Shown piece after piece: positions 11,792-63,729 of a stretch of 64,000 bases of DNA (the stretch's first letter is position 1; each line of letters starts with the position of its first letter). The position numbers and the translations under genes are program-made. This DNA comes from Planctomycetota bacterium (GTDB lineage Bacteria > Planctomycetota > Brocadiia > Brocadiales > Brocadiaceae), in NCBI GenBank assembly GCA_016873165.1, contig VGXV01000019.1, forward strand, positions 1 through 64,000. Reading direction: 5' to 3'. The notes under the pieces are model-generated. The model searched no databases and had not been told where the DNA came from. It worked only from the letters and a program-made list of their open reading frames with translations.

Positions 11792-11887
11792 TCATTCCTG
11801 CTCCCTGATTACTTTATTACCGTTTTAACGTAAAAAATACACTGTAAATTTACTTTAATGTATGATGATGTGAGATTCAATACTTTT

Positions 11888-11916
11888 TTGACAATAGCAA
11901 AAGAATACATTAAAAT
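11888..11916 (+). promoter_or_regulatory. Predicted sigma-70 promoter upstream of the 11997 gene
   Basis: TTGACA (11888-11893) and TAAAAT (11911-11916) with 17-bp spacing, in the divergent gap between the thioredoxin gene (minus) and the small membrane protein gene (plus). A second TTGACA at 11925 has no good -10 partner. Confidence 0.6.
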
Positions 11917-11996
11917 AACAACGTTTGACAATAGCATGCGTGTGTGGATGAAAGTAGAATGGATAAAAGAAAATATAGTTTTCGGGTTTTTAAATC

Positions 11997-12410: not shown

Positions 12411-12481
12411 ATAAAGTAGTTCTGTTTGAATGTACAGCATACGCAGGTGTTGCAAATCTCACCATAAGATCATAGTCATTT

Positions 12482-13468
12482 ATGAAAAACAATTTCTCTC
12501 AAAAATTTCCCCTTTTTTTTCTCTCCTGTTTCATGCTTCTGGCTACCGGCTGTAGTTTCATATCTGTTTCCCTTGGCCCCGCCGCGGGACCTCTTGAAGA
12601 AAAGACGGTTTCCGGGAAAGGCAAAGATAAAATACTCATGGTTGATATTTCCGGAATTATTACTGACGAAAAAAAGACCGGGTTTTCCGTTCTGACAGGA
12701 GAGGCTGATATGGTTTCCCGCATTAAAGAAGAATTGGTGCGGGCGAAAAAAGACGAGCGTGTAAAGTCCCTTATCCTGCGCATAAACAGCCCGGGTGGCA
12801 CAGTTACCGCATCGGACGTGATTTACCATGAGATTATGCAGTTCAGGAAGGAGACGGGGAAAAAGGTTATTGCCTGTATTATGGATCTCGGCACATCCGG
12901 CGGTTATTATATTGCGGCTTCCGCCGATACAATTATCGCGCATCCGACAACGGTGACGGGAAGCATAGGCGTTATCATGTTGAATCTCAGTATAGAAGGT
13001 CTTTTGCAGAAGATAGGAATTGCCGATACGTCAATCAAAACCGGGGAACACAAGGATATGGGTTCCCCGTTGAAAATGATGACCGAGGAGGAGAGGAAAA
13101 TATTTTTAGATATCCTCAATGCTATGTATGAAAGATTCCTTTGCGCTATTGAGGAAAACAGGGCGGGGCTTTCGATGGAGAAAATAAGGGCTCTTGCGGA
13201 CGGAAGGATTTATTCCGCCCGGCAGGCATTAGAGAACGGATTGGTTGATCAAATCGGGTATCTGGATGACGCGGTTTTAATTGCAAAAAAAGAAGCGGGC
13301 ATTGAGGAAGCGCGGGTTGTTCTTTATCACAGACCGGGGGCATATAAAAATAACATATACTCGCAACTCGGCAACGCCGGCGGCGGTGATATTAATCTCT
13401 TTAACATTGACGTAAAAACGCTTATCCATTCCGGCGCTCCTTCGTTTATGTATCTTTGGATGCCGTAG
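12482..13468 (+). CDS. sppA: Signal peptide peptidase SppA (S49), lipoprotein form
   Basis: Serine protease of the S49 family that cleaves residual signal peptides in the membrane. At 328 residues it is the short, single-domain (SppA 36K-type) version. The N-terminus is a lipoprotein signal with lipobox LLATGC, so it is probably lipid-anchored rather than spanning the membrane. Catalytic Ser lies in GTSGGYYIAASAD, preceded by the substrate strand LRINSPGGTVTASD, and the Lys general base is in the GEHKDMGSPLKMM region. The HPTTVTGSIGVIM stretch is diagnostic. The gene lies between the small membrane protein gene and hemB. Confidence 0.94.
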   Translation: MKNNFSQKFPLFFLSCFMLLATGCSFISVSLGPAAGPLEEKTVSGKGKDKILMVDISGIITDEKKTGFSVLTGEADMVSRIKEELVRAKKDERVKSLILRINSPGGTVTASDVIYHEIMQFRKETGKKVIACIMDLGTSGGYYIAASADTIIAHPTTVTGSIGVIMLNLSIEGLLQKIGIADTSIKTGEHKDMGSPLKMMTEEERKIFLDILNAMYERFLCAIEENRAGLSMEKIRALADGRIYSARQALENGLVDQIGYLDDAVLIAKKEAGIEEARVVLYHRPGAYKNNIYSQLGNAGGGDINLFNIDVKTLIHSGAPSFMYLWMP

Positions 13469-16313: not shown

Positions 16314-19300
16314 CTATTTTACAACCTTTATTTTTACGGTTACCTTTAGATCACCTGATTTAAACTTTACTTTTGCTTCCCCTGTTTTTTTCTTAGCTGT
16401 AATGTCAAATACTGTTTGACCATTATCGTCAGTAATTGCGCTCGCCGGGGACACAGAGACGTATTTTTCCCCCTCTACAACCTTCGCCTTTACTGTCTCC
16501 CCTTCCACCGGACAATCTTCTTCACCAGTCAATGTCACCGTTACTCTATCATCCTCTTTCTTCTTAATCGTCAGCTTTTTTTGGGACACTGCGATCTGCC
16601 CGGCGCTGCACACGCCTGGAGTCGAAACTGCCGATGGTGTTGGCGACGGTGCTGGCGTTGCTATTTCTTCTGCCACACGAGCCGTATCCGTCACCGTCCT
16701 TGGAAATCCAGTCGTATTAATCTCATCGTTATAGGTAATCGTTAATGTTTCACCGGCATATGCCTGGATATGTTCAAATTCCAGCGTGCCGCCGCTCGCC
16801 ACAATTTGAATCGAACCCATGAAGGTGCCGGCATCGGCGCCTGATTCAATCATCCTAACCTTCGTACTATTGAGGGAGGACGTCTCAATATACACATCAT
16901 TCAAGAGGGACTCCACATCTGTATGAATTCTGTTTTGCTCTGCGTCTGCCAGTATTATTTTCGCATAAGACCCGACAAAATAGTCATCGGCATCAAAGGA
17001 GAGCGCTGCATCAAAACTGCTGAATGTTATTGTCTTTGAGAGTGACGATGCATAGGGAATAGTATCGGTGTAAGTGACAGTGGCTATGCCGCCCTGAACC
17101 GTCTTTATGGTTCCAATATTTGACCTGACGTTTAAACTTGCGCTGCCGGCGGTGGCCGTACCTGTTTTAATGGTTGCAAGGAAAGTGCCGCTATTTATGC
17201 CTTCCTCATTAAGGTCTAGCAAGAGATATGGAGCAATAAAATAATTGTATCCTGTCGCTTTAAGTGCAGTGTTGAGAATGTCTGCGGATATTATACTCGT
17301 GTTCCTGTCAGCATCCACCACGGTTGTAACAATCGTATCTCCGGACAGATATGCCACCTCTTTGCTCAGATTTAATCTGCTAACTGGCGTCGGTATCAAT
17401 GAAGGCATTGGCGATGGTGCAGCCGTTGGTAGTATGGTCGGCGTTGGAGCTAATGTCGGCATCGGTATTGGTGTTGGTGCCGGTGTTGGCGTTATCGTTG
17501 GTGTTGGAATCAGCGCAGGCGTAAGTGTTGGAGTCGGCTCTGGTGTTGGCAACAATGTTTGGGTGGGTATTGACGTCAGCATTGGTGTCGTTGTGATAGG
17601 AGCCGGCTCGGTAGTAAAACTCCAGGTATAGTCTTTGTCTAACGTTGTCCCTGCATAATTTGCCGCTTGAGCTCCCGTCGTAATCCCGGCCGTATAAATA
17701 GTATTGTAATTAAGATTGGTTAATGGGGTAAAAGTGGCGACGGCGCCATTCGTAGTCACTGAACCGGCAACCGCATCCCCTCCGGCGCTTAACTTAAAGG
17801 TATCAGTCGTAAGTGTTGAACCATTCATATTCATTGAAAAGGTTGCAGACACAGTTGTATCTATTGCCACACTAACAGATCCATTGATCGGTTTTGTCGA
17901 ATTTATTGTGAGGGTTACTCCCGGAGGAGGCAAAGGCGGCTCCGGCGCTGAAACAGTGGTAAAGCTCCATGCAAAAGTTGAGGCCATCGCATTTCCCGCC
18001 AGGTCTTTCGCTCCTGTGGTAATCGTTGCTGTATAGGTGGTAGAATAAGATAAATTACTCAATGGAGTAAATGCAGCAGTCTCGCCGCCAGAGGATACCG
18101 CGCCGCTGATATTGCCACTTCCGTCACTCACGGTAAATGTAGCGATGGTGATGGTGGATGCATTCATTGTCTCGCTGAACGTGGCAGTAATAGCAGTATT
18201 TATGGCCACACCGGTTGCGCCATTGGCAGGGTTTGTGGAACTGACGGCGGGCAATGTTGCGTCCGTTGCCGTCCCTGTGGTAAAACTCCACGTGTAATTG
18301 GATGTCATTGCATTCCCGGCCAGGTCTCTTGCACCTGTGGTAATAGTCGCCGTATAGGTAGCGGAAGGCGACAGATTGCTCAACGGAGCAAATATGGCAG
18401 TTGTTCCGCTGTAGGATACTGCCCCGTTAATGCTGCCGCTGCTATCGCTCATGGTAAACGTGGCCGTGCTTATGGTAGAAATACCCATCGCTTCGCTGAA
18501 CGTGGCAGTAATAGCAGTATTTGTGGCCACACCGGTTGTGCCATTGGCAGGGTTTGTGGAACTGACGGCAGGCAATGTTGCGTCCGCTGCCGTCCCTGTG
18601 GTAAAACTCCACGTGTAATTGGACGCCATTGTATTTCCTGCCAGGTCTTTCGCCCCTGTGGCAATCGTTGCCGTATAGGTGGTAGAATAAGATAAATTAC
18701 TCGACGGAGTAAATGTAGCAGTCGCGCCGCCAGAGGACACCGCGCCGCTGACATTGCCACTTCCGTCGCTCACGGTAAATGTGGCGGTGGTGATGGCGGA
18801 TGCATTCATTGTCTCGCTGAACGTGGCAGTAATAGCAGTATTTGTGGCCATACCGGTTGCGCCATTGGCAGGGTTTGTGGAGCTGACGGCAGGCAATGTT
18901 GTGTCCGTTGCCGTTCCTGTGGCAAAGTTCCAGGTGTAAGCAGCAGCCATTGAATTTCCCACGAGGTCTTTTGCTCCCGTGGTAATCGTTGCCGTGTATG
19001 TAGCAGACGGAGACAGGTTGCCTGATGGAATAAACGTGGCAGTCGTACCGGCGTAGGACACCACACCGACAATATTTTCGCTGCCGTCACTCACAGTAAA
19101 CGTAGCTGTGGTGATGGTAGAGGCATCCATTGCTTCGGTAAATGTGGCAACGATAGATCTATTGATCTCCACACCGGTTTCATTATTGGCTGGACTTGTC
19201 ACACTTACTCCGGCAGTCACCGTCAAGGTTCCGGAATTTGTCGCAGCCAAACTCCCTGACGTTGCTTTGATTTCAGCAGTCCCTCCGAAATGCCCGGTAA

Positions 19301-22300
19301 ATACGGCGCTCTTATTGTCTCCTCCAGGAACAAGGTCTCCGGAGACCACACCATTCGTGGCGCTTTCAAGCGACCATGCATCGGCTGCCACATTGGCTAC
19401 AAAATTGTCCAGCGCATCCCGTGTAATAGCATACACGGCAATCAAACTACCTGCGGCAATACTCTGTGAGGATACCACGTTTCCGCTGCCATCTGCCACA
19501 GTTTCGACTCGTACTTTTGCCGCAGTTCCTGCAGTTATGTCAAATGAATTGCTCACGGCTGACGCTAATCCGGCGCTTGATGCTGTCAGATTCTTTGAGC
19601 CTGCAAGATCGATGCTCAAATCGTTAAATGTTGCAAGTCCGCTGGCGCTCGTTGTTTTCAGTGTTGTTCCGCTGAGTATCCCTGTCCCGGAAGATAATGA
19701 CATTGCGATTGAAACACCTGAAGATGACACATTATTTCCATAGGCATCCTGCAACCGCACCGTTATAGTCGGGAGGATTGCATTTCCCGCCGTCGTATCC
19801 GAAGGTTGTTGGATAAAAACTATTTTTACGGCAGATCCCGCCGATATGGTAAATGTGTTGCTGACAGCGGATGATAATCCATCGCCTGATGCCGTCAGAT
19901 TCTTTGAGCCTGCAAGATCGATGCTTAAATCATTAAATGTTGCAAGTCCGCCTGAATTTGTTGTTTGCAGCGTAGTTCCGCTGAGAGTCCCTGTCCCGGA
20001 AGATAATGACATTGCGATTGAAACACCTGAAGATGACACATTATTTCCATAGGCATCCTGTAGCTGAACTGTGACCGACGGGTTGATCGCAGCCCCTGCC
20101 GTTGCATTCGTCGGCTGTTGAGCAAATACCACCTTTGTTGCCGTTCCTGCCATAGTTGTGAAGCTACTGCTCGTGCCTGTTATATTGTCAGCATCGGTTG
20201 CCGTTGCGGTATGAACAGTTCCTGCAGTAGCGCTTGTAGTAAAAACTACCGTGGCGATTCCGCCGGCATCTGTTATGCTTGTGGGCGACGCGAATGATCC
20301 ACCGTTTGAGCTGCTCCATGTGACTACCTTGCCGGCCATTCCGATTGCGTTATTTCCGGCATCAGCAAGCTGCGCTGTGATAGTCACATTGCTTCCTGCC
20401 GCCGGACTGCTATCGCTTGAACTCACAATATACCTGATAGCAAAAGGCCCGGCAGTCCATTTTGATAATTCGTTTATGCCGGTCAGTGTTAGTGTATTAG
20501 CGCCAGTATCTCTCGCGGGAATATGCCGGCTGGGCCAGGTTGTTCCTCCATCGGTTGATCTTGCACAGATCGTATTTGTCTCGTTTGCCCCATTCAATTC
20601 GCTGTCTGCGTATTTCAAGACCAATGTGGCGTTCAATCCGGCGTTTGTTGTCGGCGTAATATCGAATGTTCTTTTTATTCCAGCTACTCCGTCAATGGTC
20701 TGCGCAGTCCCTGTACCTGTTCTTCTTAAAACAACCGTAGAACCGGGCGCTGAACCGGCTGCATTTATCTGAACTCCTAAACCGCCGAAAGTTTCATTCA
20801 CTCCTGCAGTCAATGTGCGTGTTGTTTGAATATTTCCCACAACAATAGTATCATTTGTTGTGTTTCCGTCAGCATCGTTCAATTCAGATAGGGTTCCTGA
20901 CGAACCGAGCGTCAGAGCAGCGCTGCTTTCCGTTGTAAGTATTCCGCTCGAAACCGTAAGTGTCCCGTTAACATTGGCAGCGCCGCCAAGCGTAGTTCCA
21001 TTAGCGTTGTTGACTTTGAGGTTTCCATAAGTAAGGGCGCTGATTCCCTGGGTTGCTGTGCCCTTATATTCTACAGTCAAATCTGTAAGGGTCTTGTTTG
21101 AAATGGTATACTGGGAACTGAAATCTGCAGTAACCGCTGTTCGGGTTACCTGGACTGTGCCATTCCCCGTTAAAGAGCCGCTTCCGCCTAATACAACCGG
21201 TGCATTCGGACACAAAACTGCATTCAAATCCACATTCAAAGTTCCGCCCACTGTAAAGTTTACATTCGCGGAAATGGCAGCGCTGGCATTTGAAATCGTC
21301 AGGTTGTTAAATGCTGAAGCTGTTGTTCCATCTATTGTTTGCGCAGCAGTTCCATTCAGCGTTATTGTGCTTGTCGAAGAAGTAAAGGCGCCGTTATTGG
21401 CAAAGTCTCCTCCAATAGAGTGGCTAAAACTGCTCGCGTCGAATGTGGCGCCAGAACCAATGGCAAAGTTGCCGTTAACGGTTAATGCGGATCCTGCGGT
21501 TGCAGAAGCGGTTCCTGACATCGAAAAGTTTCCGGCAATGGTCAATGCCGATGCGGGCATGGTCTTTGTGCCGGTACCGCTCAGTATGAGATGCTGGTAA
21601 CCCCCCGATCCCCCGTTTGGATTCAATACCGTCTGATTTCCGCCATTATATTCGACCGTATTTACCAGAGACCTTGCGCGCCACAAACCATTATTGGAGA
21701 CCGCGCCGGCAATTCTGGCGATATTATTAGTACTCATCGTCAGCTCTGCGCCAGTGTCGATGGTGATATTGTAGAAATTCGTTTCTCCTGCCATTGAAGC
21801 AGATGCATTAGTGAAAATTACCGTGCTTGTATCGGGATTGAAAGTTCCGTTATTTACCCAACAACCCGTGCCGCCGGCAATAGTAAGCTGTGCGCCTGCG
21901 CTTCCGTTCAAGATACCGCCGCTCTGAATTGTCATGCTATTGATGGTAACGCCGGAGGGCAATGCCGGGGAGTAGTTGCCGGAGGGAGGAGAAGGAATTA
22001 TAACGTTGTCGGCTGCTCCCGGCACTCCCCCCGTCCAATTCAACGGGTCAGACCAATCCGTACTATAACCACCATTCCAGACTATGCTTGTCGTTACCCT
22101 ATTGGAAATCGTCCATTCAAATGTTCCAAAACCCGAATCAAAAACGGCAATGCCCACATTGGAAAGTTCAATCCAGTTGTCTGTTGCATTATAATTCGAT
22201 CTGCCGTATTCCCCGACTACGCTGCCACTGGCCTGATAGCGCCAGAAACTCAGGTTGTCCTCTGTATTCCCATTAAGCTCAGAGTCTCGGTAATGCAGTT

Positions 22301-25300
22301 TCAACGTGGCGATAGAGCCGCTTCCCCCGGTCTGAATAATGTCGTAATATCTCGTAATAGCATCTGTTTTCCAGGAAGGGGCTGAGCCTATGGTGATTTT
22401 TACGCTCATTTCTGTTGGGAGTGTTCCTGCAAGGGTAAAGGTTATCGTGGTAAACTGATTGCCGAAGCTATATGCAATATTCGGGTTAATCGTTGTTCGC
22501 TTGACAATTCCTGCTACATCACCGGTTCCAGCCGTAGTCGCCGAAGCGCCCATTGTCAGCGTGTTAGAACCCATGGCAAGGTTGCCCGTCAAAGTCAAAG
22601 TCGAATTCACTATAAGGTTAGTCGTTGCTGATGGAGTAACACTTGTATTGGAAATCGTTAAGTCATTAAATGTTGTTATACTCGTACCGCTAATGGTTTG
22701 CCCCGATGTGCCATTAAACGTTATCGTGCTTGTGCCGGCGATAAAGGTACTGTTGTTCGTCCAGTTGCCGGTCAGGCTCAGGGCGCTCGAATTAGCGTCA
22801 AGCGTGCCTGCGGTGAGCGTTACGTTGCCATTGATGGTGTGGGATAACGAAGTGCCAAGGTTTAACGTCCCACCACTCCCATTCATCGTCAGCGATGCAG
22901 CCGTAACGTTGCCGGTGAGTGTGGCCGTGCTTGCCGTCCGCACGAAGGAAAGCCCACCTGTTGTTGAGAAACCTGCAATATTCGGCGTTGAACTCGTTCC
23001 CCCAATGGTTATAGGAGAACCATTAGCTGAAAATGTGGCGCTATTGACAAAGCTTCCGTTTAACGTCAGATCAAAGTTGCTTGTGGAAGTGCTGAATGCC
23101 CCCCCTGATATGGTTAACGTTCCGTTTACAACCGCTGCTGCGCCCAACGTGCCCGTTCCAGCCCCTGATTTCGTAAGGTTGTTAAATGTGGTTGCAGTGT
23201 TTGTAATTGTTTGTGCGCCGCTTCCGCTAAAATTGACCGTGCCAGTGCCGGCTGTATACGTTGCTGAACCTGTCCAGTTGCCGGTAAGGCTCAGGGAGCT
23301 CGAATTAGCATCAAGTGTGCCCGCAGTGAGCGTCACATTGCCGTTGATGGTGTGAGATAATCCGATGCCGAGGTTTAACGTTCCGCCGCTTCCGTTCATC
23401 GTTAACGACGCGGCAGTAATATTGCCTGCAATGGTTGCCGTGCTTGCGGTCCGCGTGAATGAAAGATTTCCTGTAGTAGAGAAGCCGGCAATGCCTGGCG
23501 TTGCGCTTGTCCCGCTGATAATTATATTGGAACCGTTGGCCGTAAATGTGCCGCTGTTCATAAAACTTCCGTTCAGCGTTAAAGAGAAGTTGCTTCCTGA
23601 TGTATTAAGCATTCCTGCCGTGATGGTAAGATCGCCATTCACCGTAACAGCGTCGCCCAGCGTTGCGGTCTGTCCGGATTTGTCGATGGTAAGGTGATGA
23701 TAGATAGTCCCTTTTACCGTTTGCGAAGCCGTAGTACTGGTGTAATTTACCGTATTGGGATTGGCCGTTGCCGTAAGCGTGGTAATGGCAGAGGTTCCGT
23801 TAATGTTTAATACTGAGCCATTGCCTTGAAGCAGTATTCCTGTGCCGCTTAAGGCGGTTCCTACCGTCAGGGTCGTATTGTTGGTGAGGGCAACGCCCGT
23901 GACGGTTATGCTGGGGATGGAGATTGCCGCTGTTCCTCCGATTGACTGGCTGTTTGTGTCAAAGGTCTGCACCCCCGTTCCCGCAGTAAAAGCCGCGCCG
24001 TTGTGGGTGATTCCCCCCCGGAAGGTCACTGCATAATTTGCCGAATTGTTCCAGACGCCCCCTGCGTTAATTGTGACCATACCCACGAATATTTTTGCAT
24101 TGGTACCTCCGGTAATACCAAGTGTACCGGTAATATTTGTAGTGCCGTTTGCTGTTAAGGCAAGGGTGCTTGTATTGAGCGTCCCGGCCGTAACGGTAAG
24201 ATTTCCATTTACGGTGGTTGAAGCGCCAAGCGTTGCGGTCTGTCCGGATTTGTCAATGGTAAGGTGGTGATAGGTAGTCCCCTTTACCGTTTGCGAAGCC
24301 GTAGTACTGGTGTAGTTTACCGTATTGGGATTGGCCGTTGCCGTAAGCGTGGTAATGGCAGAGGTTCCGTTAATGTTTAATGCTGAGCCACTGCCCTGAA
24401 GCAATATTCCCGTGCCGCTGAGCGCTGTGGATACGGTAAGCGCGGCATTGTTCGTGAGCGTTATACTGGCGCCGGTAACGGTTACTGTTGCAATCGTAAA
24501 GTCGCTATTAACCGAGTAATTTGTAGTAAAGGTGGCTGCGGTAAGGGATTTCGAACTTGCCGTGCCGCTGAGCGTTCCGCCGCCTCCGGGTTTCTGGAAC
24601 GTCCATGTGCCCTGAGTTCCCGTGATTGATCCTGTTCCGTCGATCTGCAGATTGCCATTCATTGTGACAGCTTCTGCAGCGGTAAAGCTCATGACGCCTC
24701 CGCTGTTAATTACGATGTCGCCAAAGGTTTTTGTCCCTGTCGCTGAAGTGATGTTTATGGTGCCATCTATATTTGTTGACCCGGCAACAGTGACGGTATA
24801 AGCCCCTATGCCAAGCGTTCCCGCGGTAATGGCAAGATTGCCGTTTATTGTGGCATTTGCCCCGAACGATGCGGTATTTGACGCCTTATTAATAGTAAGG
24901 TGATTAAATGTGGTCGCAGCGTTTCCAATTGTTTGTGCGCTCGTCCCTGTAAACACTATTGTGCCGGCGCTTGCCGTAAATGTCCCTGAACCTGTCCAGT
25001 TCCCGGAAAGAGTTAAAGCGCTCGATCCTCCATTCAGCGTGCCTGCTGTCAAAATTACGTTGCCGCTGACGGTATGACTGAACGCCGTTCCAAGATTGAA
25101 TGTTCCTCCGGAAGCATTTACGGTAAGGTTTCCCGTGATAGTGAGAGAGGAATCAGGCGTTTTTGTTCCGGCGCCTGAGATTGTCAGGTTTTGATATCCC
25201 GGCGTTGCGGACACCGTTTGAGTTGTTCCTGACGCATATTCAACCGTTGTGCCGGAAGCGATATTTAATGTGGTAAATGACGGAAACGCAGTTCCTACGC

Positions 25301-28300
25301 CAGCAGAGCCGAGTTTATATGTGCCGGATGTGAGGTTGAGCGCGCTTGAACCTGACAAGGTGATTACAAAACCCCCGTCGCTGAAAATACTGTTTGCCGT
25401 TGCGTCGCCGATAGTAAGTGTGGCAAGCGACACTGCCCCGCCAAGCGTTCCTCCTGCGGTATTGTTGACCTTCAGCGTCACGTATGTCCCCGCATGTATC
25501 GTCTGGGCAGAAGAGCCGTTATAATTGACCGTATTTCCGCTCGCGGATGCCGTCAATGTAGCAATGCCCGAAGTGCTGCCGATGTTTAACACGGCATTGC
25601 TGCCTTGGGCAAGCTCTCCCGTGCCGCTTAAGGCAGCGCCAACCGTTAAGGTCGTGTTGTTCGTGAGGGTGACCCCCGTGACGGTCATGCTGGGGATGGA
25701 GATTGCCGTTGTTCCCCCGATTGACTGGCTGTTTGTGTCAAAAGTCTGCGCCCCAGTTCCGGCGGTAAAAGTTGACCCGTTGTGGGTGATTCCCCCCCGG
25801 AAAGTAACTGCCTCGTTTGCTGAATTATTCCAGACACCGCCGGAATTGATTGTGACCATTCCGGCAAACGTCTTTGTTCCTGTTGTGCTTGTGATGCCTA
25901 ATGTGCCTGTAATACTCGTGATGCCGTTTGCCGTTAAGGTGTTAGCGCCTGTATTGAGCGTCCCGGCCGTAATGGTGAGATTGCCATTCACTATGGTGGC
26001 AGCGCCAAGCGTTGCGGTCTGCCCGGATTTGTTAATGGCAAGATGATGATAGGTAGTCCCCTTTACCGTCTGGCCTGCAGTGGTGCTGGTGTAATTGACC
26101 GTGTTGGGATTGACCGTAGCGGTCAGGGTGGTAATGTCCGAAGTGCCGCCGATATTTAAAATAGCGCCATTGCTCTGGGTAAGCCCGCCCGTGCCGCTTA
26201 AGGCAGTGCCAACCGTTAAGGTCGTATTGTTAGTGAGGGTGACTCCCGTGACGGTTATGCTGGGAATAGAAATCGCCGTTGTTCCTCCGATTGACTGGCT
26301 GTTTGTATCAAAGGTATGTACTCCCGTTCCCGCGGTAAAGGTCGTTCCGTTATGGGTGATTCCGCCCCGGAATGTTACAGCGAAGTTTGCAGAATTATTC
26401 CACGTTCCTCCTTCATTGATGGTTACCAAACCCACAAACAGTTTCGCTCCGGTTCCGCCCGTGATACCCAAGGTGCCCGTAATGTCGGTGGTACCGTTTG
26501 CAGTTAAGGCAAGGGTGCTTGTATTGAGCGTCCCGGCCGTAATAGTGAGATTACCATTCACTATGGTGGCAGCGCCGAGTGTTGCTATATTCGATGCCTT
26601 GTTAATCGTAAGATGATTGAATGTGGTTGCAGCACTTCCTATTGTTTGTGCACTTGTCCCTGTAAACACTACGGTACCGGTGTTTGCTGTAAATGTCCCT
26701 GCGCCTGTCCAGTTGCCGGTAAGATTGAGGGTGCTCGATCCTCCATTCAGCGTGCCAGCAGTTAGTGTCACATTACCGTTAACGGTATGATTGAACGCCG
26801 TTCCAAGATTGAATGTTCCGCCTGTGGCGTTTATGGTGAGGTTGCCCGCTATAGTGAGTGAGGAACCAGGTGTTTTTGTTCCGGCGCCTGAGATTGTCAG
26901 GTTTTGATAGCTGGGCGTTGCAGACACAGTCTGCACCACTCCTGATGCGTAGTTCACTGTCGTTCCAGAGGCGATAGTTATTGTGCCAAAGGAGGGAAAC
27001 GTGGTGCCTGCGGTAGCAGAGCCAAGCGTAAACGTTCCGGATGTAAGGTTAAGTACGCTGGAGCCTGACAACGTGATTACGAAGCCCCCATCGCTAAAAA
27101 TACTGCTCGCCGTTACATCCCCGATGGTAAGTGTTGTGAGTGTTGTTGCGCCTCCAAGAGTTGCCCCGGCGGTGTTGTTTGTCTTCAGCGTTACGTAAGT
27201 CGCCGCTTTAATCGTCTGCGCCACTGTGCCGTTATAATTGACTGTGTTCCCGCTTGCAGATGCATTGAGCGTACCAGTTGCCAGTACCGGGCCAGTTACG
27301 TTGAGAGTGGAGTTTTCGTCGTTGAGCCATGTGGACCCCGCAACCGTTCCGGTGATACCGCCGGCGGCCGTAGTGGTCACCGTCTTCTTGTTCGTCACCG
27401 TGATCGCTCCTGTGATTGCGATTGTCCCGGTAAAGGTGATCGGTGTGGTTGTTCCGTCAATCGCCTGGCTGTTTGTATCAAAGGTACACACACCAGTTCC
27501 AGAGCTAAAAGTCGTGCCGTTGTGGGTGATTCCCCCTTGAAAGGTTACCGCCTCGTTAGCTGAATTATTCCACGTTCCACCGGTATCAATCGTGACCAAT
27601 CCGGTAAACGTCTTTGTTCCGGTTGTTGACGTGATGTTTATCGTGCCAGTTATATTTGTTGCCCCAGTGACGGCAGATGTAACACCCCCTAGATTAAGCG
27701 TACCGGTTCCATTGATGGAAAGGGTTCCTCCAATGGTTAGTGTCCCGCTATTTACCGTTGTTGCGCCACCGACGACCAGACTTCCAAATGTCATGCTGGT
27801 AGTCGGGGTGATGGTAGTAGTTGCGGCAAGAGTGGTAGTAGAATTTGACAGATTAAAGGAAGTGCCTCTTGTGTTGGTAATGTTTCCGCCAAAAGAGATT
27901 GTTGCCGCCCCGCTGGAGGTCAGATCGGAGCCGGCGCCGTTCTTGGTATAATCGCCTGAAAACGTTAATGTACCGGTTGAAACCGTGATGTCGCAATTTC
28001 GCTGCTGAGTTGTAGCTGCCCCTTGCAGGGTAGTACCGCCGACATAAAATGTGCCTGTACCCACCGTGAGGGTAATATTTGTAGTAGCAGCGGTGGGCTG
28101 GGCGGTAAAATTGCCACTGCACGAAAACGTGCCGCCATTAAAGGTGATAGTCATATTTGCAGCGGCTACAGCGGGACTAAGGTTTGCATTGACGCATGAG
28201 AGGGTAACGCCGGAGGCAAGGTTTATATTATGCACCCTGGCTGTTGTGGTAATGGTATTGGTAATATCGCCTGATATGGTTAAATTTCCATTTATTGTCA

Positions 28301-28577
28301 ACGTCGATGCGGCTGAATTGCCATACGTAAGCGAAGCGATTGTAGTGGGATTTGTTATTGCAGGCTGGTTGGTAATAGCGCCAGTGCCTATCTGCACTGC
28401 ATCGTCCGATCCGGGCGGAAGGTTAGGAGTGCCGCTAACGGTAGTCCAGTTTGACGCCGTTTCCCATGCGGAGCTTGTGGCGCCGGACCAGCGTACGGTT
28501 CCTGCCGCAAGCGCTTCTGTTCCCCATACAAGCAGGATTGTAAACAGAAACAACCTTAAGAATGTAAATTTTTTCAA
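16314..28577 (-). CDS. Giant exported repeat protein (4087 aa), putative surface adhesin or envelope protein
   Basis: Signal peptide about residues 1-24 (WGTEALA|AG). Residues about 25-2150 are low-complexity beta-strand repeats rich in Thr, Ser, Gly and Asn, built from units such as GNLTITAGTLNTS, SGNWTGSGTF and TFNHLTINKA, as in beta-helical surface proteins. A second WNGGYSTDWSDPLNWTGGVPG module opens near 2160, echoing the N-terminal WSGATSSAWETASNWTT. Then come an invasin-type Ig domain (about 2716-2806) and two near-identical repeats with QQPxxxTAG and SGLATFNDLSIDLAGSKNL (about 2806-3017). Five Big_5-like Ig repeats (SSTNPANGATGVATN..., about 3126-3646) and a Pro/Thr linker (about 3660-3730) follow. 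The C-terminal part ends in a Lys-rich Ig-like domain (about 3976-4087). No beta-barrel, LPXTG or PEP-CTERM anchor is visible. TTG start with AAAAAGGCC upstream. Adhesion or matrix role is inference. Long frames on the opposite strand are compositional shadows. Confidence 0.88.
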   Translation of the reverse strand: MKKFTFLRLFLFTILLVWGTEALAAGTVRWSGATSSAWETASNWTTVSGTPNLPPGSDDAVQIGTGAITNQPAITNPTTIASLTYGNSAASTLTINGNLTISGDITNTITTTARVHNINLASGVTLSCVNANLSPAVAAANMTITFNGGTFSCSGNFTAQPTAATTNITLTVGTGTFYVGGTTLQGAATTQQRNCDITVSTGTLTFSGDYTKNGAGSDLTSSGAATISFGGNITNTRGTSFNLSNSTTTLAATTTITPTTSMTFGSLVVGGATTVNSGTLTIGGTLSINGTGTLNLGGVTSAVTGATNITGTINITSTTGTKTFTGLVTIDTGGTWNNSANEAVTFQGGITHNGTTFSSGTGVCTFDTNSQAIDGTTTPITFTGTIAITGAITVTNKKTVTTTAAGGITGTVAGSTWLNDENSTLNVTGPVLATGTLNASASGNTVNYNGTVAQTIKAATYVTLKTNNTAGATLGGATTLTTLTIGDVTASSIFSDGGFVITLSGSSVLNLTSGTFTLGSATAGTTFPSFGTITIASGTTVNYASGVVQTVSATPSYQNLTISGAGTKTPGSSLTIAGNLTINATGGTFNLGTAFNHTVNGNVTLTAGTLNGGSSTLNLTGNWTGAGTFTANTGTVVFTGTSAQTIGSAATTFNHLTINKASNIATLGAATIVNGNLTITAGTLNTSTLALTANGTTDITGTLGITGGTGAKLFVGLVTINEGGTWNNSANFAVTFRGGITHNGTTFTAGTGVHTFDTNSQSIGGTTAISIPSITVTGVTLTNNTTLTVGTALSGTGGLTQSNGAILNIGGTSDITTLTATVNPNTVNYTSTTAGQTVKGTTYHHLAINKSGQTATLGAATIVNGNLTITAGTLNTGANTLTANGITSITGTLGITSTTGTKTFAGMVTINSGGVWNNSANEAVTFRGGITHNGSTFTAGTGAQTFDTNSQSIGGTTAISIPSMTVTGVTLTNNTTLTVGAALSGTGELAQGSNAVLNIGSTSGIATLTASASGNTVNYNGSSAQTIHAGTYVTLKVNNTAGGTLGGAVSLATLTIGDATANSIFSDGGFVITLSGSSALNLTSGTYKLGSAGVGTAFPSFTTLNIASGTTVEYASGTTQTVSATPGYQNLTISGAGTKTPDSSLTITGNLTVNASGGTFNLGTAFSHTVSGNVILTAGTLNGGSSALTLSGNWTGSGTFTASAGTIVFTGTSAQTIGNAATTFNHLTINKASNTASFGANATINGNLAITAGTLGIGAYTVTVAGSTNIDGTINITSATGTKTFGDIVINSGGVMSFTAAEAVTMNGNLQIDGTGSITGTQGTWTFQKPGGGGTLSGTASSKSLTAATFTTNYSVNSDFTIATVTVTGASITLTNNAALTVSTALSGTGILLQGSGSALNINGTSAITTLTATANPNTVNYTSTTASQTVKGTTYHHLTIDKSGQTATLGASTTVNGNLTVTAGTLNTSTLALTANGTTNITGTLGITGGTNAKIFVGMVTINAGGVWNNSANYAVTFRGGITHNGAAFTAGTGVQTFDTNSQSIGGTAAISIPSITVTGVALTNNTTLTVGTALSGTGILLQGNGSVLNINGTSAITTLTATANPNTVNYTSTTASQTVKGTIYHHLTIDKSGQTATLGDAVTVNGDLTITAGMLNTSGSNFSLTLNGSFMNSGTFTANGSNIIISGTSATPGIAGFSTTGNLSFTRTASTATIAGNITAASLTMNGSGGTLNLGIGLSHTINGNVTLTAGTLDANSSSLSLTGNWTGSATYTAGTGTVNFSGSGAQTITNTATTFNNLTKSGAGTGTLGAAAVVNGTLTISGGAFSTSTSNFDLTLNGSFVNSATFSANGSPITIGGTSSTPNIAGFSTTGGLSFVRTASTATLTGNVTAASLTMNGSGGTLNLGTSLSHTINGNVTLTAGTLDANSSALSLTGNWTNNSTFIAGTSTITFNGTSGQTISGTSITTFNDLTISNTSVTPSATTNLIVNSTLTLTGNLAMGSNTLTMGASATTAGTGDVAGIVKRTTINPNIAYSFGNQFTTITFTLAGTLPTEMSVKITIGSAPSWKTDAITRYYDIIQTGGSGSIATLKLHYRDSELNGNTEDNLSFWRYQASGSVVGEYGRSNYNATDNWIELSNVGIAVFDSGFGTFEWTISNRVTTSIVWNGGYSTDWSDPLNWTGGVPGAADNVIIPSPPSGNYSPALPSGVTINSMTIQSGGILNGSAGAQLTIAGGTGCWVNNGTFNPDTSTVIFTNASASMAGETNFYNITIDTGAELTMSTNNIARIAGAVSNNGLWRARSLVNTVEYNGGNQTVLNPNGGSGGYQHLILSGTGTKTMPASALTIAGNFSMSGTASATAGSALTVNGNFAIGSGATFDASSFSHSIGGDFANNGAFTSSTSTITLNGTAAQTIDGTTASAFNNLTISNASAAISANVNFTVGGTLNVDLNAVLCPNAPVVLGGSGSLTGNGTVQVTRTAVTADFSSQYTISNKTLTDLTVEYKGTATQGISALTYGNLKVNNANGTTLGGAANVNGTLTVSSGILTTESSAALTLGSSGTLSELNDADGNTTNDTIVVGNIQTTRTLTAGVNETFGGLGVQINAAGSAPGSTVVLRRTGTGTAQTIDGVAGIKRTFDITPTTNAGLNATLVLKYADSELNGANETNTICARSTDGGTTWPSRHIPARDTGANTLTLTGINELSKWTAGPFAIRYIVSSSDSSPAAGSNVTITAQLADAGNNAIGMAGKVVTWSSSNGGSFASPTSITDAGGIATVVFTTSATAGTVHTATATDADNITGTSSSFTTMAGTATKVVFAQQPTNATAGAAINPSVTVQLQDAYGNNVSSSGVSIAMSLSSGTGTLSGTTLQTTNSGGLATFNDLSIDLAGSKNLTASGDGLSSAVSNTFTISAGSAVKIVFIQQPSDTTAGNAILPTITVRLQDAYGNNVSSSGVSIAMSLSSGTGILSGTTLKTTSASGLATFNDLSIDLAGSKNLTASSAGLASAVSNSFDITAGTAAKVRVETVADGSGNVVSSQSIAAGSLIAVYAITRDALDNFVANVAADAWSLESATNGVVSGDLVPGGDNKSAVFTGHFGGTAEIKATSGSLAATNSGTLTVTAGVSVTSPANNETGVEINRSIVATFTEAMDASTITTATFTVSDGSENIVGVVSYAGTTATFIPSGNLSPSATYTATITTGAKDLVGNSMAAAYTWNFATGTATDTTLPAVSSTNPANGATGMATNTAITATFSETMNASAITTATFTVSDGSGNVSGAVSSGGATATFTPSSNLSYSTTYTATIATGAKDLAGNTMASNYTWSFTTGTAADATLPAVSSTNPANGTTGVATNTAITATFSEAMGISTISTATFTMSDSSGSINGAVSYSGTTAIFAPLSNLSPSATYTATITTGARDLAGNAMTSNYTWSFTTGTATDATLPAVSSTNPANGATGVAINTAITATFSETMNASTITIATFTVSDGSGNISGAVSSGGETAAFTPLSNLSYSTTYTATITTGAKDLAGNAMASTFAWSFTTVSAPEPPLPPPGVTLTINSTKPINGSVSVAIDTTVSATFSMNMNGSTLTTDTFKLSAGGDAVAGSVTTNGAVATFTPLTNLNYNTIYTAGITTGAQAANYAGTTLDKDYTWSFTTEPAPITTTPMLTSIPTQTLLPTPEPTPTLTPALIPTPTITPTPAPTPIPMPTLAPTPTILPTAAPSPMPSLIPTPVSRLNLSKEVAYLSGDTIVTTVVDADRNTSIISADILNTALKATGYNYFIAPYLLLDLNEEGINSGTFLATIKTGTATAGSASLNVRSNIGTIKTVQGGIATVTYTDTIPYASSLSKTITFSSFDAALSFDADDYFVGSYAKIILADAEQNRIHTDVESLLNDVYIETSSLNSTKVRMIESGADAGTFMGSIQIVASGGTLEFEHIQAYAGETLTITYNDEINTTGFPRTVTDTARVAEEIATPAPSPTPSAVSTPGVCSAGQIAVSQKKLTIKKKEDDRVTVTLTGEEDCPVEGETVKAKVVEGEKYVSVSPASAITDDNGQTVFDITAKKKTGEAKVKFKSGDLKVTVKIKVVK
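17640..19200 (-). repeat. Tandem 321-bp repeats encoding Big_5-like Ig domains
   Basis: Five consecutive copies of an Ig-like unit lie within the giant gene. The middle copies recur every 321 bp (107 codons), as judged from GCAGTAATAGCAGTATTT at about 18828, 18507 and 18186, with long stretches identical at DNA level. That implies recent duplication or gene conversion. The outer copies have diverged. Confidence 0.8.
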
Positions 28578-43134: not shown

Positions 43135-43494
43135 TTAAAGTCCCAATACCTTTTTCAGGATAAAATCCACGTTCTTCAAAGTATCCGCATTTACCGTTCC
43201 CCACCGTTCTAAAAACCGTTGGATGGAAAGAGATTTCACCTGGTCACATCGTATAACGGAAGTTTGGTGAATACCTCCTTCCGGAGGAGATATGAGGATG
43301 TGGAGCCTAAACGGGGTATCCTTTCTGAAGGTTGTAACAGGGCAAACAACAATCAATCCCCACGGACTTCTGTTGAGTTCATCAACGGAAACAACGAGGG
43401 CAGGATGCCGGTCCTGTATCTCTGAACCGATGGAAGGGCTGAAATCAACGCGCCTGATTTCTCCTCTTTTTGGAAAGGGTTTTTCGTGCGCCAA
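43135..43494 (-). CDS. MazF/PemK-family endoribonuclease toxin
   Basis: Type II toxin of 119 residues. It shows the MazF core: KRGEIRRVDFSPSIGSEIQDRHPALVVS (first strand pair and the conserved R-P-A-LVVS), VCPVTTF, and TSVIRCDQVKSLSIQRF with the conserved D-Q-V-K-S. The start appears to be TTG within the last codons of the antitoxin gene, giving a 50-bp overlap typical of such operons. It would cut mRNA when the antitoxin is degraded. Confidence 0.93.
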   Translation of the reverse strand: MAHEKPFPKRGEIRRVDFSPSIGSEIQDRHPALVVSVDELNRSPWGLIVVCPVTTFRKDTPFRLHILISPPEGGIHQTSVIRCDQVKSLSIQRFLERWGTVNADTLKNVDFILKKVLGL

Positions 43495-45256: not shown

Positions 45257-45808
45257 TTACCGAACTTCTTTGATTATTTCAACGGTAAAAGTATAAATTT
45301 CTATGTTACCGTGCTTCCATGCATTTGCGGATATTCCCACCTTGCCGGAGCAGCAGTGAGAAAGAAATTCTTCTTTCGTCCAGCCGGTTTCTGTTGCCAC
45401 CTGAGGAAGAAAACATCCTGTTTGGTCATCTTTCCTGATATATATACCGTGTTTGCCCAGTTCAAAATCAAGCGGGTTCGTGATACGTTTTAAGGAGGAT
45501 AGTATGGAAAGTTCAATGTTCAGTTGGTCAAGTTCAGAGGGTGTGATCGGATCGTCGAAAAAACGGGAGTCTTCCGTTGCCGATGAAATAGCTATCTCGG
45601 AAACAAGTTTGTAGAGGGGTATATCTGATACGAATCGGCCTATGCAGCCCCGAAGCTGACCACGGTTTTTTAGTGTAACAAAAACCCCCTGATGTGACTG
45701 TATGTCCGGATTATCACAGGAGAATGTTGGGTTGGGTTCACTTTTTACCGCAGACTCAACGCTTTTTCTGGCAATATCCAGAAGAATTTTTTTTGCAGAA
45801 TCATCCAA
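45257..45808 (-). CDS. AMMECR1-domain protein (AmmeMemoRadiSam protein A)
   Basis: Stand-alone AMMECR1 domain of 183 residues without signal peptide, hence cytoplasmic. The signature GQLRGCIGRF is present, with GVFVTLKNRG before it and LPQVATETGWTKEEFLSHCC after. These proteins co-occur with MEMO1 homologs and a radical SAM enzyme in the poorly understood AmmeMemoRadiSam system. The start is TTG with GGAG 8 bp upstream. The neighbouring gene encodes an exported MEMO1-AMMECR1 fusion, so two AMMECR1 copies lie side by side. Confidence 0.9.
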   Translation of the reverse strand: MDDSAKKILLDIARKSVESAVKSEPNPTFSCDNPDIQSHQGVFVTLKNRGQLRGCIGRFVSDIPLYKLVSEIAISSATEDSRFFDDPITPSELDQLNIELSILSSLKRITNPLDFELGKHGIYIRKDDQTGCFLPQVATETGWTKEEFLSHCCSGKVGISANAWKHGNIEIYTFTVEIIKEVR

Positions 45809-45891: not shown

Positions 45892-47487
45892 CTACAGTTT
45901 TTTTACTTCGTGAAATACGTCTGCTGTGAAAACAAAGAACTCCATATCATTGTCTTGCCATGCATCTACGGGTAATCCGGCTTTTCTGCAAAGATGCTGT
46001 AGTGTTGCTGTTTTATCCCATCCCTGTTCGGTGGCGACATGGGGAAGAAATACGGCGTTTGCATATCCTTTGCGAATTACAATGCCTTCTTTGCCAACGA
46101 TAAACTCATCGGGGCCGGTTATTTTTTTTGGCTGACTCAATACGGAAATTTCTATGTCAATATCATTTATTTCTTCACGATTTACGGGAATAAATCTATT
46201 ATCGTTTGCTGATGAGTTAATGGTGTTTTCGACTACCGCCTGATAGAGCGGTTTTTTGGGGAGAATATACCCGATGCATCCGCGCAGTTGCCCCTGTTTC
46301 TTTAATGTTACAAACACGCCATATTTTTCCAAAAGCCTTGGGGTTTGCGTAAAAAGCAGTATATCAATTTTGGGAGAAGCGCCTGTGTTTGTATATGTTT
46401 CCAGAGTGTTTCGGGCAAGCGACAGCAGTATATTTTTTTCTTTTTCTGAAAAATTAAGGGCAAGTTCGTCTGTTTGTGAATTTTGCTGCGGGCGATATTC
46501 GCCTGATTTGATCTCAGTGTTTTTTGTAAAGAGAATGGAAGCATAGCTGACGGAATAGACAAAATTGTTTGTTTGATGCCCTGAGGTATCGTAATTGAGA
46601 ATGTGTCCTTTTGCGTTATCCGGTAAGAGTTTTAAAAGAATAGAAATGGGTAAAATACCGCATGCATTTATTCCCGTTTGTTTTCTGTAGTCTCTCAGTC
46701 CGTTAAAATCTTTGTTAAGAATCTTTTCAAAAGCCCCGTAGTCAAGGTTTTTTATGTTTTCCTCCACCTTTTCTCTGAAGGGAACATATTGGTAAGCGTC
46801 TCCATAATGGGTAAAGTCGGAACTGACGACGAGCAATGTTCTATCATCCAGTAATGGTCGTATAGTTTCTGCTATTTTTTCCAAATCATCATTTATCAAT
46901 ACGCCCACCATAAGGGGCACCAACTGAAAATCTTCCAACGTCATTTGTAAAAAAGGCAGTTGAGTCTCCAAGGAATGTTCTCCCCTGTATGCGCCCTCAT
47001 ATGCCCCAAATAACGTTAAAGGGCTGGTATTGCGGGTATTTTTCGATTCAGGTTCAAAAGTGGTGCTGAGCAAACGGTCACATGTTTCTTGATCTACGGG
47101 AATTTCGCCTAAAGGTGTTTTAAAGCTTTTTGCTTTCAGAACAGATACACCCCGATATCTTCTTCCGCTGTGGCTGGGGGCAAGCGCTATTACCCGTTTA
47201 AATCCATTATCCTTAATAACGCTATACCCATAGGCAGCTACCTGCCCAGAATAAACATAACCAGCATGAGGAGTTATGATTGCAATTGGCCTTCCTTCCG
47301 GTTTCAGAACGGGGACATTCTTTAAAAAGCCATTTATCTGGTCTTTTAATGCTGTCTCGTTGCCCGGATAAAACCTCCCTGCCACTTGTGGTTCCCACGA
47401 CTGGGATTGTTCCGTTTCTGCGAATAATGATAAGGAAGATATGAAAGTAAATATAAAAAAGGTGAATATAAATAGTATATGCTTCAT
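45892..47487 (-). CDS. Exported MEMO1-AMMECR1 fusion protein (AmmeMemoRadiSam B+A)
   Basis: A 531-residue two-domain protein. A signal peptide (about residues 1-24, ending SLSLFAETE) is followed by a MEMO1/extradiol-dioxygenase-like domain (about 30-320). That domain carries VAGRFYPGN, ITPHAGYVYSG, LAPSHSGRRY, VSSDFTHYGDAY and the H-E pair in GEHSLETQLPFLQ, so metal-ligand positions are retained. The C-terminal AMMECR1 domain (about 350-531) has KQGQLRGCIGYI and PHVATEQGW. The ATG at 47487 has AAGGA at good spacing; an upstream frame extension overlaps the DedA gene and lacks one. No radical SAM partner is adjacent. Export of both domains on one chain is unusual, as homologs are normally cytosolic. 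Confidence 0.9.
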   Translation of the reverse strand: MKHILFIFTFFIFTFISSLSLFAETEQSQSWEPQVAGRFYPGNETALKDQINGFLKNVPVLKPEGRPIAIITPHAGYVYSGQVAAYGYSVIKDNGFKRVIALAPSHSGRRYRGVSVLKAKSFKTPLGEIPVDQETCDRLLSTTFEPESKNTRNTSPLTLFGAYEGAYRGEHSLETQLPFLQMTLEDFQLVPLMVGVLINDDLEKIAETIRPLLDDRTLLVVSSDFTHYGDAYQYVPFREKVEENIKNLDYGAFEKILNKDFNGLRDYRKQTGINACGILPISILLKLLPDNAKGHILNYDTSGHQTNNFVYSVSYASILFTKNTEIKSGEYRPQQNSQTDELALNFSEKEKNILLSLARNTLETYTNTGASPKIDILLFTQTPRLLEKYGVFVTLKKQGQLRGCIGYILPKKPLYQAVVENTINSSANDNRFIPVNREEINDIDIEISVLSQPKKITGPDEFIVGKEGIVIRKGYANAVFLPHVATEQGWDKTATLQHLCRKAGLPVDAWQDNDMEFFVFTADVFHEVKKL

Positions 47488-47497: not shown

Positions 47498-48127
47498 TTA
47501 TTTGAGTATCTTGATAACAAAAAAACCAGCAATAATTAATACGACAAAGGCGATAGAAAGGATGTTAAAATATTTGTCGATAAAATGTTTTATTTTCGGC
47601 CCGAAAAAATAAATAAGCCCGGCAACCATGAAGAATCTGCCTGAACGGCTGATTACCGAGGCGATAAAGAATGTCCATAAATCAACTTTGCAAACCCCGG
47701 CGCCAATGGTAAAGACTTTATACGGGATGGGGGTAAATCCTGCGATGGCAACGGCAGAAAAAGCGTTGGTGTTGTACTGTTCTTTTACATAATCAAATTT
47801 TTCCATGAGTCCGAGGGTGTTAAGAATGGGTATTCCGACAAGATCAAACATCTCGTAACCGATAAAATATCCAAAACCACCTCCTAAAACAGACCCAACT
47901 GAACAAATAGCGGCATATTTGAATGATTTTCTTGCAATTGAAAACGCGAGTGCCATCAAAAGGACGTCGGGTGGGATTGGAAAGAAAGATGATTCACAAA
48001 ATGCCAGTATAAATAAAGCAATGGAACCGTATGGGGTATGCGCCCAATGCAATGTCCAATCGTAAAGTCTTCTGTGCAAACCGGCTTTTTTTATTTGTGA
48101 TAATTCTAATTGCTCAGTATGGTTCAT
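47498..48127 (-). CDS. DedA/VTT-domain (YqaA-like) membrane protein
   Basis: Inner-membrane protein of 209 residues with about five hydrophobic segments and the VTT/SNARE-associated pattern: PPDVLLMALAFSIARKSFKYA, GSVLGGGFGYFIGYE (the G-x-x-x-G re-entrant stretch) and FTPIPYKVFTIGAGV. Family members are linked to lipid carrier recycling or envelope homeostasis. It is the first gene of the minus-strand group with the MEMO1 fusion, which starts 10 bp after it ends. GAGGAG precedes its ATG. Confidence 0.9.
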   Translation of the reverse strand: MNHTEQLELSQIKKAGLHRRLYDWTLHWAHTPYGSIALFILAFCESSFFPIPPDVLLMALAFSIARKSFKYAAICSVGSVLGGGFGYFIGYEMFDLVGIPILNTLGLMEKFDYVKEQYNTNAFSAVAIAGFTPIPYKVFTIGAGVCKVDLWTFFIASVISRSGRFFMVAGLIYFFGPKIKHFIDKYFNILSIAFVVLIIAGFFVIKILK

Positions 48128-62487: not shown

Positions 62488-63729
62488 ATGGAGTCATTTG
62501 ATTTTCTACACATCGATTCAGAGATTGTTGATGGCAGGATTGTCGGAAAAGCCGGGGGTATGCTGGGCCATATGTTGCAACCTTACGTTGATCAGTTCTT
62601 TGAAAAGGTGAATTCGCTTAAGGTGATTGCCAAAGTAAATGGCATGAATGTTTATAATCTTTATAACCCTCCGATGCCAAGCAAGGCAGGGATGCGATTC
62701 CTTGAAAGAAAGCTGCGGATGATGTTGAGCAAGATGGCATTTCCCGTTACTGCGAATCTTGCGATAACCCATAAATGCCAATGTCAATGTATTCACTGCA
62801 GCGCCGACCCATTTATTGATTATACAAAGAAAGAACTTACCGTTCAGGAGATTAAGACGGTAGTCGATGGCGCGTTGGACCTTGGCGCAAGCCTGATTAT
62901 TTATGTAGGCGGGGAACCGATGCTCAGGGAAGATCTTTATGATCTTATCCGGTATGTTGATAAGACAAAGGCAATTTCCATGATTTTTACAAACGGAATA
63001 ATGTTAACCGAGGAAAATGTAAAGAGGCTTGCAAAGGCAGGATTGTTTTCTTTGAATATTTCTATCGATAGCAGTGAACCTGAGTTGCATAATGAATTTC
63101 GCGCCGTTCCCGGCTGTTATCAAAAGGCATTTGAAGGGGCTGAACGCTGTCGGAAGGCGGGTATTTTAACGGGAATATCCACATATGCCACGAGTGAAAG
63201 CATTAAAAGCGGAAAGGTGGAAAAACTTTTAAAGATAGCGCAGGAACAGGGGTTTTCCGAGGTTACCATATTTGATTGCATTCCTTCCGGGCGGTTTTTA
63301 AAGGATACCTCAAAAATCTTAACGGCGGAAGACAGAAAACAACTGATCGCAATTACAAAGAAATACCATGAAATGGATCATCCGATGGGCATTAATTGCA
63401 TGTCAATTATCAATTCGCCAAGGGGTGTTGGTTGTTACGGGGCTCAGTCTCAATTCTATATGACCGCATATGGCGATATAAATCCTTGTGATTTTAATCC
63501 GATTAATTTCGGGAATGTTCGCGATATGTCCATTCAGGAAATATGGAAGAAGATGGTTTCTCATCCTGATTTTAGCAAGAGATACCCCACATGTCGAATG
63601 CAGAGCAAGGCATACCGAAAGAAATATATTGACCCGCTTCCCCACAATGTAAGATTGCCTGTAAGAATAGAAGATATTGCGCCCGTTGAAATGGCTGCGG
63701 ATAAAGAGGCTTCTCTTGTGGGTGTTTAA
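62488..63729 (+). CDS. Radical SAM protein with SPASM-like C-terminal cysteines
   Basis: 413 residues. The radical SAM cluster is CQCQCIHC (C-x3-C-x2-C, residues about 93-100), followed by VGGEPMLREDLYDLIRYV, NGIMLTEENVKRLAKAG and SLNISIDSSEPELHNEFR typical of the fold. The C-terminal part has GCYGAQSQFYMTAYGDINPCDFNPINFGN, a SPASM/twitch-like arrangement that may bind a second 4Fe-4S cluster. Such proteins modify peptides or small molecules. It begins 2 bp after the Gfo/Idh gene with AAGGAGG before the ATG, so it is the same operon. Substrate unknown; a part in lipid or cofactor modification is possible. Confidence 0.9.
   Translation: MESFDFLHIDSEIVDGRIVGKAGGMLGHMLQPYVDQFFEKVNSLKVIAKVNGMNVYNLYNPPMPSKAGMRFLERKLRMMLSKMAFPVTANLAITHKCQCQCIHCSADPFIDYTKKELTVQEIKTVVDGALDLGASLIIYVGGEPMLREDLYDLIRYVDKTKAISMIFTNGIMLTEENVKRLAKAGLFSLNISIDSSEPELHNEFRAVPGCYQKAFEGAERCRKAGILTGISTYATSESIKSGKVEKLLKIAQEQGFSEVTIFDCIPSGRFLKDTSKILTAEDRKQLIAITKKYHEMDHPMGINCMSIINSPRGVGCYGAQSQFYMTAYGDINPCDFNPINFGNVRDMSIQEIWKKMVSHPDFSKRYPTCRMQSKAYRKKYIDPLPHNVRLPVRIEDIAPVEMAADKEASLVGV

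Follow-up and report, generated by a model that had tools for sequence, protein, structure and literature searches.

MEMO and AMMECR1 proteins are conserved from archaea to humans, and to our knowledge no reaction is known for them. Together with a radical-SAM protein they make up the AmmeMemoRadiSam system (TIGR04335, TIGR04336, TIGR04337), and radical-SAM enzymes are thought to act in the cytoplasm, where SAM and strong reductants are found. The question raised by the locus described here is where a MEMO–AMMECR1 fusion that starts with an apparent export leader acts, and with which partners. The locus lies on a stretch of 64,000 nucleotides of a Planctomycetota bacterium of the order Brocadiales (contig VGXV01000019.1; hereafter, the window). 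The initial annotation had read it as an envelope-located version of the MEMO1/AMMECR1 system with no radical-SAM partner adjacent. The first half of this reading stands; the second holds only locally, since a radical-SAM paralogue with a twin-arginine (Tat) leader is encoded on another contig, C14.

The predicted exported MEMO–AMMECR1 fusion

The fusion gene (45892..47487, minus strand, ATG at 47487) encodes a predicted exported protein of 531 aa, whose two domains were assigned by profile searches against TIGR and Pfam. The MEMO domain (46528..47394, minus strand; residues 32-320) matches TIGR04336 with an E value of 8.6e-64 and 215 bits against a cut-off of 26, and in the alignment it retains the PHAG, PSH and CG motifs of the metal site of human MEMO1. 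The AMMECR1 domain (45913..46431, minus strand; residues 353-525), which includes the RGCIG motif, matches TIGR04335 with an E value of 4.7e-50 and 169 bits against a cut-off of 99, as well as PDB 1vaj (E 2.3e-35); the Pfam domain calls are consistent with the TIGR profiles. Judging by its N-terminus, MKHILFIFTFFIFTFISSLSLFA|ETEQ, the protein has a Sec-type signal peptide, predicted to cover residues 1–23 (47419..47487, minus strand), with the LFA|E cleavage site judged by eye. The initial description of a MEMO and an AMMECR1 protein fused behind a signal peptide is thus borne out.

The first alternative in-frame start of the gene is a GTG 34 codons further on, at residue 35 and within the MEMO domain, while an extension to a TTG start at 47532 would add 15 residues and overlap the upstream gene. 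Leaders were scored in relatives by a home-made rule with Sec and Tat forms, revised once after inspection of its misses. A leader was found in 40 of 41 fusions of the order versus 1 of 44 free AMMECR1 proteins, and at internal start codons, taken as background, the Sec form scored 35 of 888 and the Tat form 8 of 888; the leader of the fusion is therefore not a chance resemblance. The sole fusion that is negative by the rule (G020), like that of a named S. rubra record, has its signal peptide in an overlapping or other frame. It is most improbable that the leader is an artefact of annotation and the fusion cytosolic: the predictor is home-made and the fusion is known here from sequence alone, but this possibility was rejected because the next start codon falls inside the MEMO domain and leaders recur in relatives, which in other phyla (among the best 80 of 583 relatives) bear leaders of the Sec or lipoprotein type.

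The proposed envelope location is well supported and recurs both throughout the order and in other phyla; the predicted position of the fusion is very likely outside the cytoplasm. The fusion itself was matched in 58 of 59 related genomes, with close relatives in named Brocadiaceae and Scalindua records, on which the assignment of the order to Brocadiales is based. A search for hydrazine synthase as a mark of anammox metabolism gave no match anywhere, controls included, and is therefore uninformative. The PHAG motif of MEMO and the RGCIG motif of AMMECR1 are each retained in 97 of 98 leader-bearing fusions.

Gene neighborhood of the fusion

The fusion is transcribed, on the minus strand, after a gene for a VTT/DedA-type membrane protein (47498..48127, minus strand; PF09335, E 4.3e-11), which lies immediately upstream across a gap of 10 nt, and before a free AMMECR1 gene (45257..45808, minus strand; TIGR04335, E 9e-47). 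The latter, placed 84 bp downstream by the initial annotation and 83 nt by our measurement, encodes a protein of 183 aa from a TTG start. It has no leader and, in agreement with the cytosolic role first suggested for it, is best read as a probable member of a second, cytosolic set. This three-gene order is retained across the order Brocadiales: the VTT gene is found 5' of the exported fusion in 39 of 53 genomes and the free AMMECR1 gene 3' of it in 47 of 53, some of the misses being contig ends. The gene leuB was also considered as a functional neighbor and discarded, as it is present in 3 of 53 genomes of the order. The match of the VTT protein to PF09335 is at domain level and does not fix a flippase subfamily; for the undecaprenyl-phosphate (UndP) flippase role that was considered for it, two of the three DedA/VTT subfamilies are described in PMC10127716 as unlikely UndP flippases.

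Other genes were observed in the window. A further radical-SAM-like ORF of 413 aa (62488-63729, plus strand) has a CxxxCxxC-type motif by eye and no match to TIGR04337. A repetitive ORF of 4087 aa with a leader-like N-terminus (16314-28577, minus strand) resembles a giant surface protein, and a MazF/PemK-type toxin-like gene (PF02452, E 2.6e-25) is found at 43135-43494 on the minus strand.

Partner genes elsewhere in the genome

The absence of a radical-SAM partner holds locally, as no match to TIGR04337 was found within the 64-kb window. Genome-wide it does not, and a genome devoid of this protein is ruled out by two full-length TIGR04337 copies, both encoded on contig C14 (384 and 355 bits against a cut-off of 220). 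One of them is a leaderless protein of 336 aa. The other, with 381.7 bits to TIGR04337, holds the N-terminal Tat leader MITRRRLIKASVLGACGLCFGNKLTAFAED, and genes of this kind adjoin exported fusions in other phyla; a candidate for the partner first reported as missing is present. The radical SAM has a PF04055 Radical_SAM domain (E 2.3e-20) with the CX3CX2C motif.

The remaining components could also be traced. AMMECR1 is represented in the whole genome only by the fusion and the free gene, and MEMO by the fusion and a free, leaderless protein of 269 aa encoded on C15. The genome has a TatC gene, a spermidine-synthase-like membrane protein encoded on C43, and two DUF362 proteins with twin-arginine leaders, at 39% and 34% to the operon type, one type being that encoded on C44. 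In the leaders of the radical SAM and of the DUF362 proteins, a mildly hydrophobic stretch comes after the twin-arginine motif, as expected of Tat substrates, and these leaders match the SRRxFLK motif given for the Tat pathway in PMC3712460. By the leader rule, a leader is present in 24 of 24 Tat-type radical SAM proteins of the order (23 by the Tat form, one by the Sec form with the RR seen by eye) and in 1 of 26 low-identity radical-SAM paralogues.

The MEMO, AMMECR1 and radical-SAM genes are scattered in this genome, the fusion lying apart from the Tat radical SAM, as it also does in the near-closed genomes G020 and G024. Gene adjacency in AmmeMemoRadiSam, which is frequent and optional, is seen in other Planctomycetota and in other phyla. 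The data fit two parallel sets, a cytosolic one formed by the free MEMO, the free AMMECR1 and the leaderless radical SAM, and an exported one formed by the fusion together with the Tat radical SAM, with the pairing suggested by the leaders. By sequence, both genes of the putative exported pair are under purifying selection and no relics. The dN/dS ratio is 0.04 for the Tat radical SAM (this genome against G002); for the fusion, all three same-genus pairs give 0.10–0.11. Of 78 Tat-type sequences, all 78 contain the radical-SAM cysteine pattern at some point of the ORF.

Joint presence and loss of the putatively exported components

Joint loss is the strongest sign that these scattered genes belong together. 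Across 56 genomes of the order, with states assigned by hand, G011, G029 and G036 excluded and G006 scored as DUF362-present from two contig-end pieces, 37 hold both the Tat radical SAM and a DUF362 protein of the C44 type, 3 only the radical SAM, 4 only DUF362 and 12 neither (p 1e-6). In the order genomes at least 90% complete, the corresponding numbers are 25, 0, 4 and 12. Corrected for kinship, 5.3 of 8 pairs are concordant and 0.3 discordant (median sign-test p 0.06). Of the 15 order genomes without the Tat radical SAM, 6 have a fusion whose AMMECR1 half is disrupted or missing, versus none of 33 with it (G036 and G039 excluded), which after the same correction leaves 2.6 concordant cases versus 0 (p 0.25). 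The kinship-corrected results are suggestive only.

The remains of such losses can be seen directly. In the single-contig genome G001, of the same genus, the Tat radical SAM gene and the DUF362 gene both survive as frameshifted remnants (L250, L291), and fragments of both are found in G017 and G026. The fusion is intact in 9 of the 15 order genomes without the Tat radical SAM, among them G001, where it is still constrained.

The association extends to Planctomycetota outside the order. Out of 356 genomes, 15 have a Tat-type radical SAM and a two-domain fusion, 3 the radical SAM alone, 16 the fusion alone and 322 neither (p 2e-15), in a table of hand counts over non-independent genomes, with the G313 fusion scored from two neighboring pieces and with cut-offs chosen after viewing the lists (for the fusion, at least 150 bits over the two domains; for the radical SAM, at least 49% identity). 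Of the 18 Tat-type genomes, 11 show a twin-arginine leader. The rest include a fused radical SAM (G268), one cut by the contig (G112), one with a membrane-type leader (G069), and four whose leader was left unread (G316, G168, G197 and G066). As a separate observation, two ORFs of G042 that by eye resemble a polyprenyl diphosphate synthase and a CDP-diglyceride synthase (L299:1414-2157 and 548-1444) lie about 2 kb from its DUF362 gene.

Tat and leaderless variants in other lineages

In three Planctomycetota genomes outside the order (G070, G119 and G154), a lipoprotein-type fusion is encoded directly 5' of the Tat radical SAM. An alignment of fusions, scanned against named genomes, returned 80 loci from many phyla, the best 80 of at least 583 confirmed relatives, in which exported forms are over-represented because the relatives were ranked against a lipoprotein fusion. 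A fusion and a separate radical SAM share a contig in 39 of these best 80 of 583. The radical SAM is of the Tat type in 23 of them and leaderless in 14, whereas in L197 it is truncated at the contig start and in L199 it lies beside a leaderless fusion. The fusions of the 23 Tat loci all bear a leader, 22 by the rule and that of L172 by eye; these loci, again among the best 80 of 583, belong to Planctomycetota (9), Myxococcota (4), Acidobacteriota (3), Omnitrophota (2), Fermentibacterota (2) and Spirochaetota (1), with two unassigned.

The two variants differ in their additional genes. A DUF362 gene is present in 16 of 23 Tat loci versus none of 14 leaderless loci (best 80 of 583). It often lies between the exported fusion and the Tat radical SAM, and several of its products carry a twin-arginine leader of their own. 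Conversely, an FMN_bind/Fer4_5-type membrane protein is encoded in 10 of 14 leaderless loci versus 1 of 23 Tat loci (best 80 of 583). According to domain checks on single members, the membrane parts of these proteins, which resemble DsbD or spermidine synthase, are joined to FMN and iron–sulfur domains, and the proteins may plausibly provide an electron route for the leaderless variant. In their domains they recall the NosR/RnfG-type FMN/iron–sulfur membrane proteins, but the NosR profile remains below its cut-off (54.5 of 1000 bits).

In a tree of 95 radical-SAM sequences, the Tat radical SAM of this genome is placed in a 42-row clade (SH-aLRT 99), consisting of 41 Tat-type proteins and one natural fusion. 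With the tree rooted at the midpoint, the exported state needs five changes and must therefore have been gained or lost more than once.

In L122 (4565-6868), MEMO, an AMMECR1 part reduced to profile positions 1–103 of 168 and a radical SAM are encoded as a single ORF behind a hydrophobic N-terminus. As proof of a shared location it is weakened by the shortened AMMECR1 and by its origin in a single MAG contig, and it could be a product of assembly; L098 (G268) agrees with it in coordinates and length and was counted as the same contig.

Further features of these loci were noted. A gene for a membrane-anchored coiled-coil protein is conserved directly 3' of the radical SAM in L100, L117, L119, L120, L121 and L122, of which L119 and L121 are apparently one contig; the members searched against Pfam gave no match. 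A conserved lipoprotein gene, also with no Pfam match, follows the Tat radical SAM in L100, L117 and L119. In a WOR-3 genome, two MEMO–AMMECR1 fusions are encoded in tandem (L194:9932-11407 and 11752-13140), one lipoprotein-like and one leaderless.

A proposed exported AmmeMemoRadiSam system and its alternatives

The fusion is likely to supply the MEMO–AMMECR1 part of an exported AmmeMemoRadiSam system, with a probable set of exported partners, next to which the same cell would operate a cytosolic system. Leaders, domains, metal and cluster motifs, the gene neighborhoods of relatives and joint loss are what the sequences give directly, and from them a further step can be proposed tentatively, at somewhat less than an even chance: a complete radical-SAM system outside the cytoplasm, formed by the Tat radical SAM, the Tat DUF362 protein and the exported fusion, to which SAM and electrons would be supplied across the membrane, with the cytosolic copy alongside. 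In the mechanism proposed for the exported system, Sec would thread the fusion out of the cytoplasm, while the radical SAM (C14) and DUF362 (C44) would be folded and loaded with their cofactors inside and then exported by Tat. Once outside, the three proteins would cooperate, probably on a membrane-bound, lipid-like substrate. The Tat pathway translocates folded, cofactor-loaded proteins (PMC3712460) and therefore suits an iron–sulfur enzyme.

The lipid substrate, suggested here, is the weakest step of the proposal, because it rests on the VTT/DedA neighbor and on a proposal that MEMO modifies isoprenoids: Burroughs 2019 (J Biol Chem) reportedly connected the gene contexts of MEMO with the modification of isoprenoids and of bases. 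DedA/VTT proteins are associated with lipid movement in PMC10127716. The main difficulty for radical chemistry at this site is the supply of SAM. Against one fixed system speak the intact exported fusions of genomes without the Tat radical SAM and the existence of the second variant, in which a membrane flavin/iron–sulfur protein and a radical SAM with no leader accompany the exported fusion. As for SAM itself, we know of none outside the cytoplasm.

The alternative that survives best, although unlikely, takes the radical SAM as a maturase that modifies or radicalizes the MEMO–AMMECR1 protein, for example at its invariant RGCIG loop, before Sec export if leaderless and after export if Tat-borne, and not as a metabolic enzyme of the envelope. 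This would account for exported fusions being accompanied by both leaderless and Tat radical SAM proteins, and on the chemistry it stands nearly level with the main proposal. Beyond TIGR04337, the radical SAM comes closest to the glycyl-radical activase families YjjW and PFLA, and its PDB sequence matches are limited to pyruvate formate-lyase activases. The similarity is weak, however, at about 57 bits, and the match to pyruvate formate-lyase activase (PDB 3c8f, E 2.5e-4) aligns only the radical-SAM core; the activase is not known to have an export leader or extra cysteine regions at both ends. The nine intact fusions in genomes without a Tat radical SAM also speak against a maturase, though the leaderless paralogue could serve in its place.

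It is rather unlikely, in turn, that the system is split by the membrane, with the radical SAM inside, the MEMO–AMMECR1 protein outside and a membrane flavin/iron–sulfur protein linking them, the Tat version being a later derivative. The distribution of the FMN_bind/Fer4_5-type proteins described above, often with a spermidine-synthase-like part, agrees with such an arrangement in leaderless loci. The genome of the window, however, carries a Tat radical SAM, and the midpoint-rooted tree gives no direction of change.

It is improbable that the fusion acts on its own as a metal-binding or redox protein outside the cytoplasm, with the Tat radical SAM and DUF362 serving another pathway. The intact, constrained fusions without a Tat radical SAM and the retained metal motifs of MEMO are in line with it, as is the binding of iron reported for human MEMO1 in PMC11081632. 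The operon-like adjacency in other phyla, the co-occurrence across Planctomycetota and the decay of the AMMECR1 half only where the Tat radical SAM is lost argue against it.

Relation to known systems and significance

The proposed system resembles AmmeMemoRadiSam in that all three families score far above their cut-offs and retain the metal and cluster motifs. It differs in that two of the three parts have export leaders, DUF362 joins them, and a leaderless set coexists. The MEMO half belongs to the same family as human MEMO1 (PDB 3bcz, 7kq8; E about 1e-24), and its PHAG, PSH and CG motifs align on those of MEMO1, whose metal ligands are given as H49, H81 and C244 (PMC11081632). Unlike the fused, leader-bearing protein described here, human MEMO1 is a single-domain protein, described in the same source as cytosolic. 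A phrase search of open-access literature found no paper that speaks of a periplasmic, exported, extracytoplasmic, secreted or Tat-dependent radical SAM, with prior notice possible in Burroughs 2019, and among open-access papers that name AmmeMemoRadiSam none is about the system, as judged by title.

An exported and separately inherited copy offers a handle on the reaction of MEMO and AMMECR1, as joint losses name its partners and the envelope narrows its substrate. If the proposal is true, a radical-SAM enzyme acting outside the cytoplasm would break the expectation that ties this chemistry to the sites of SAM and strong reductants.
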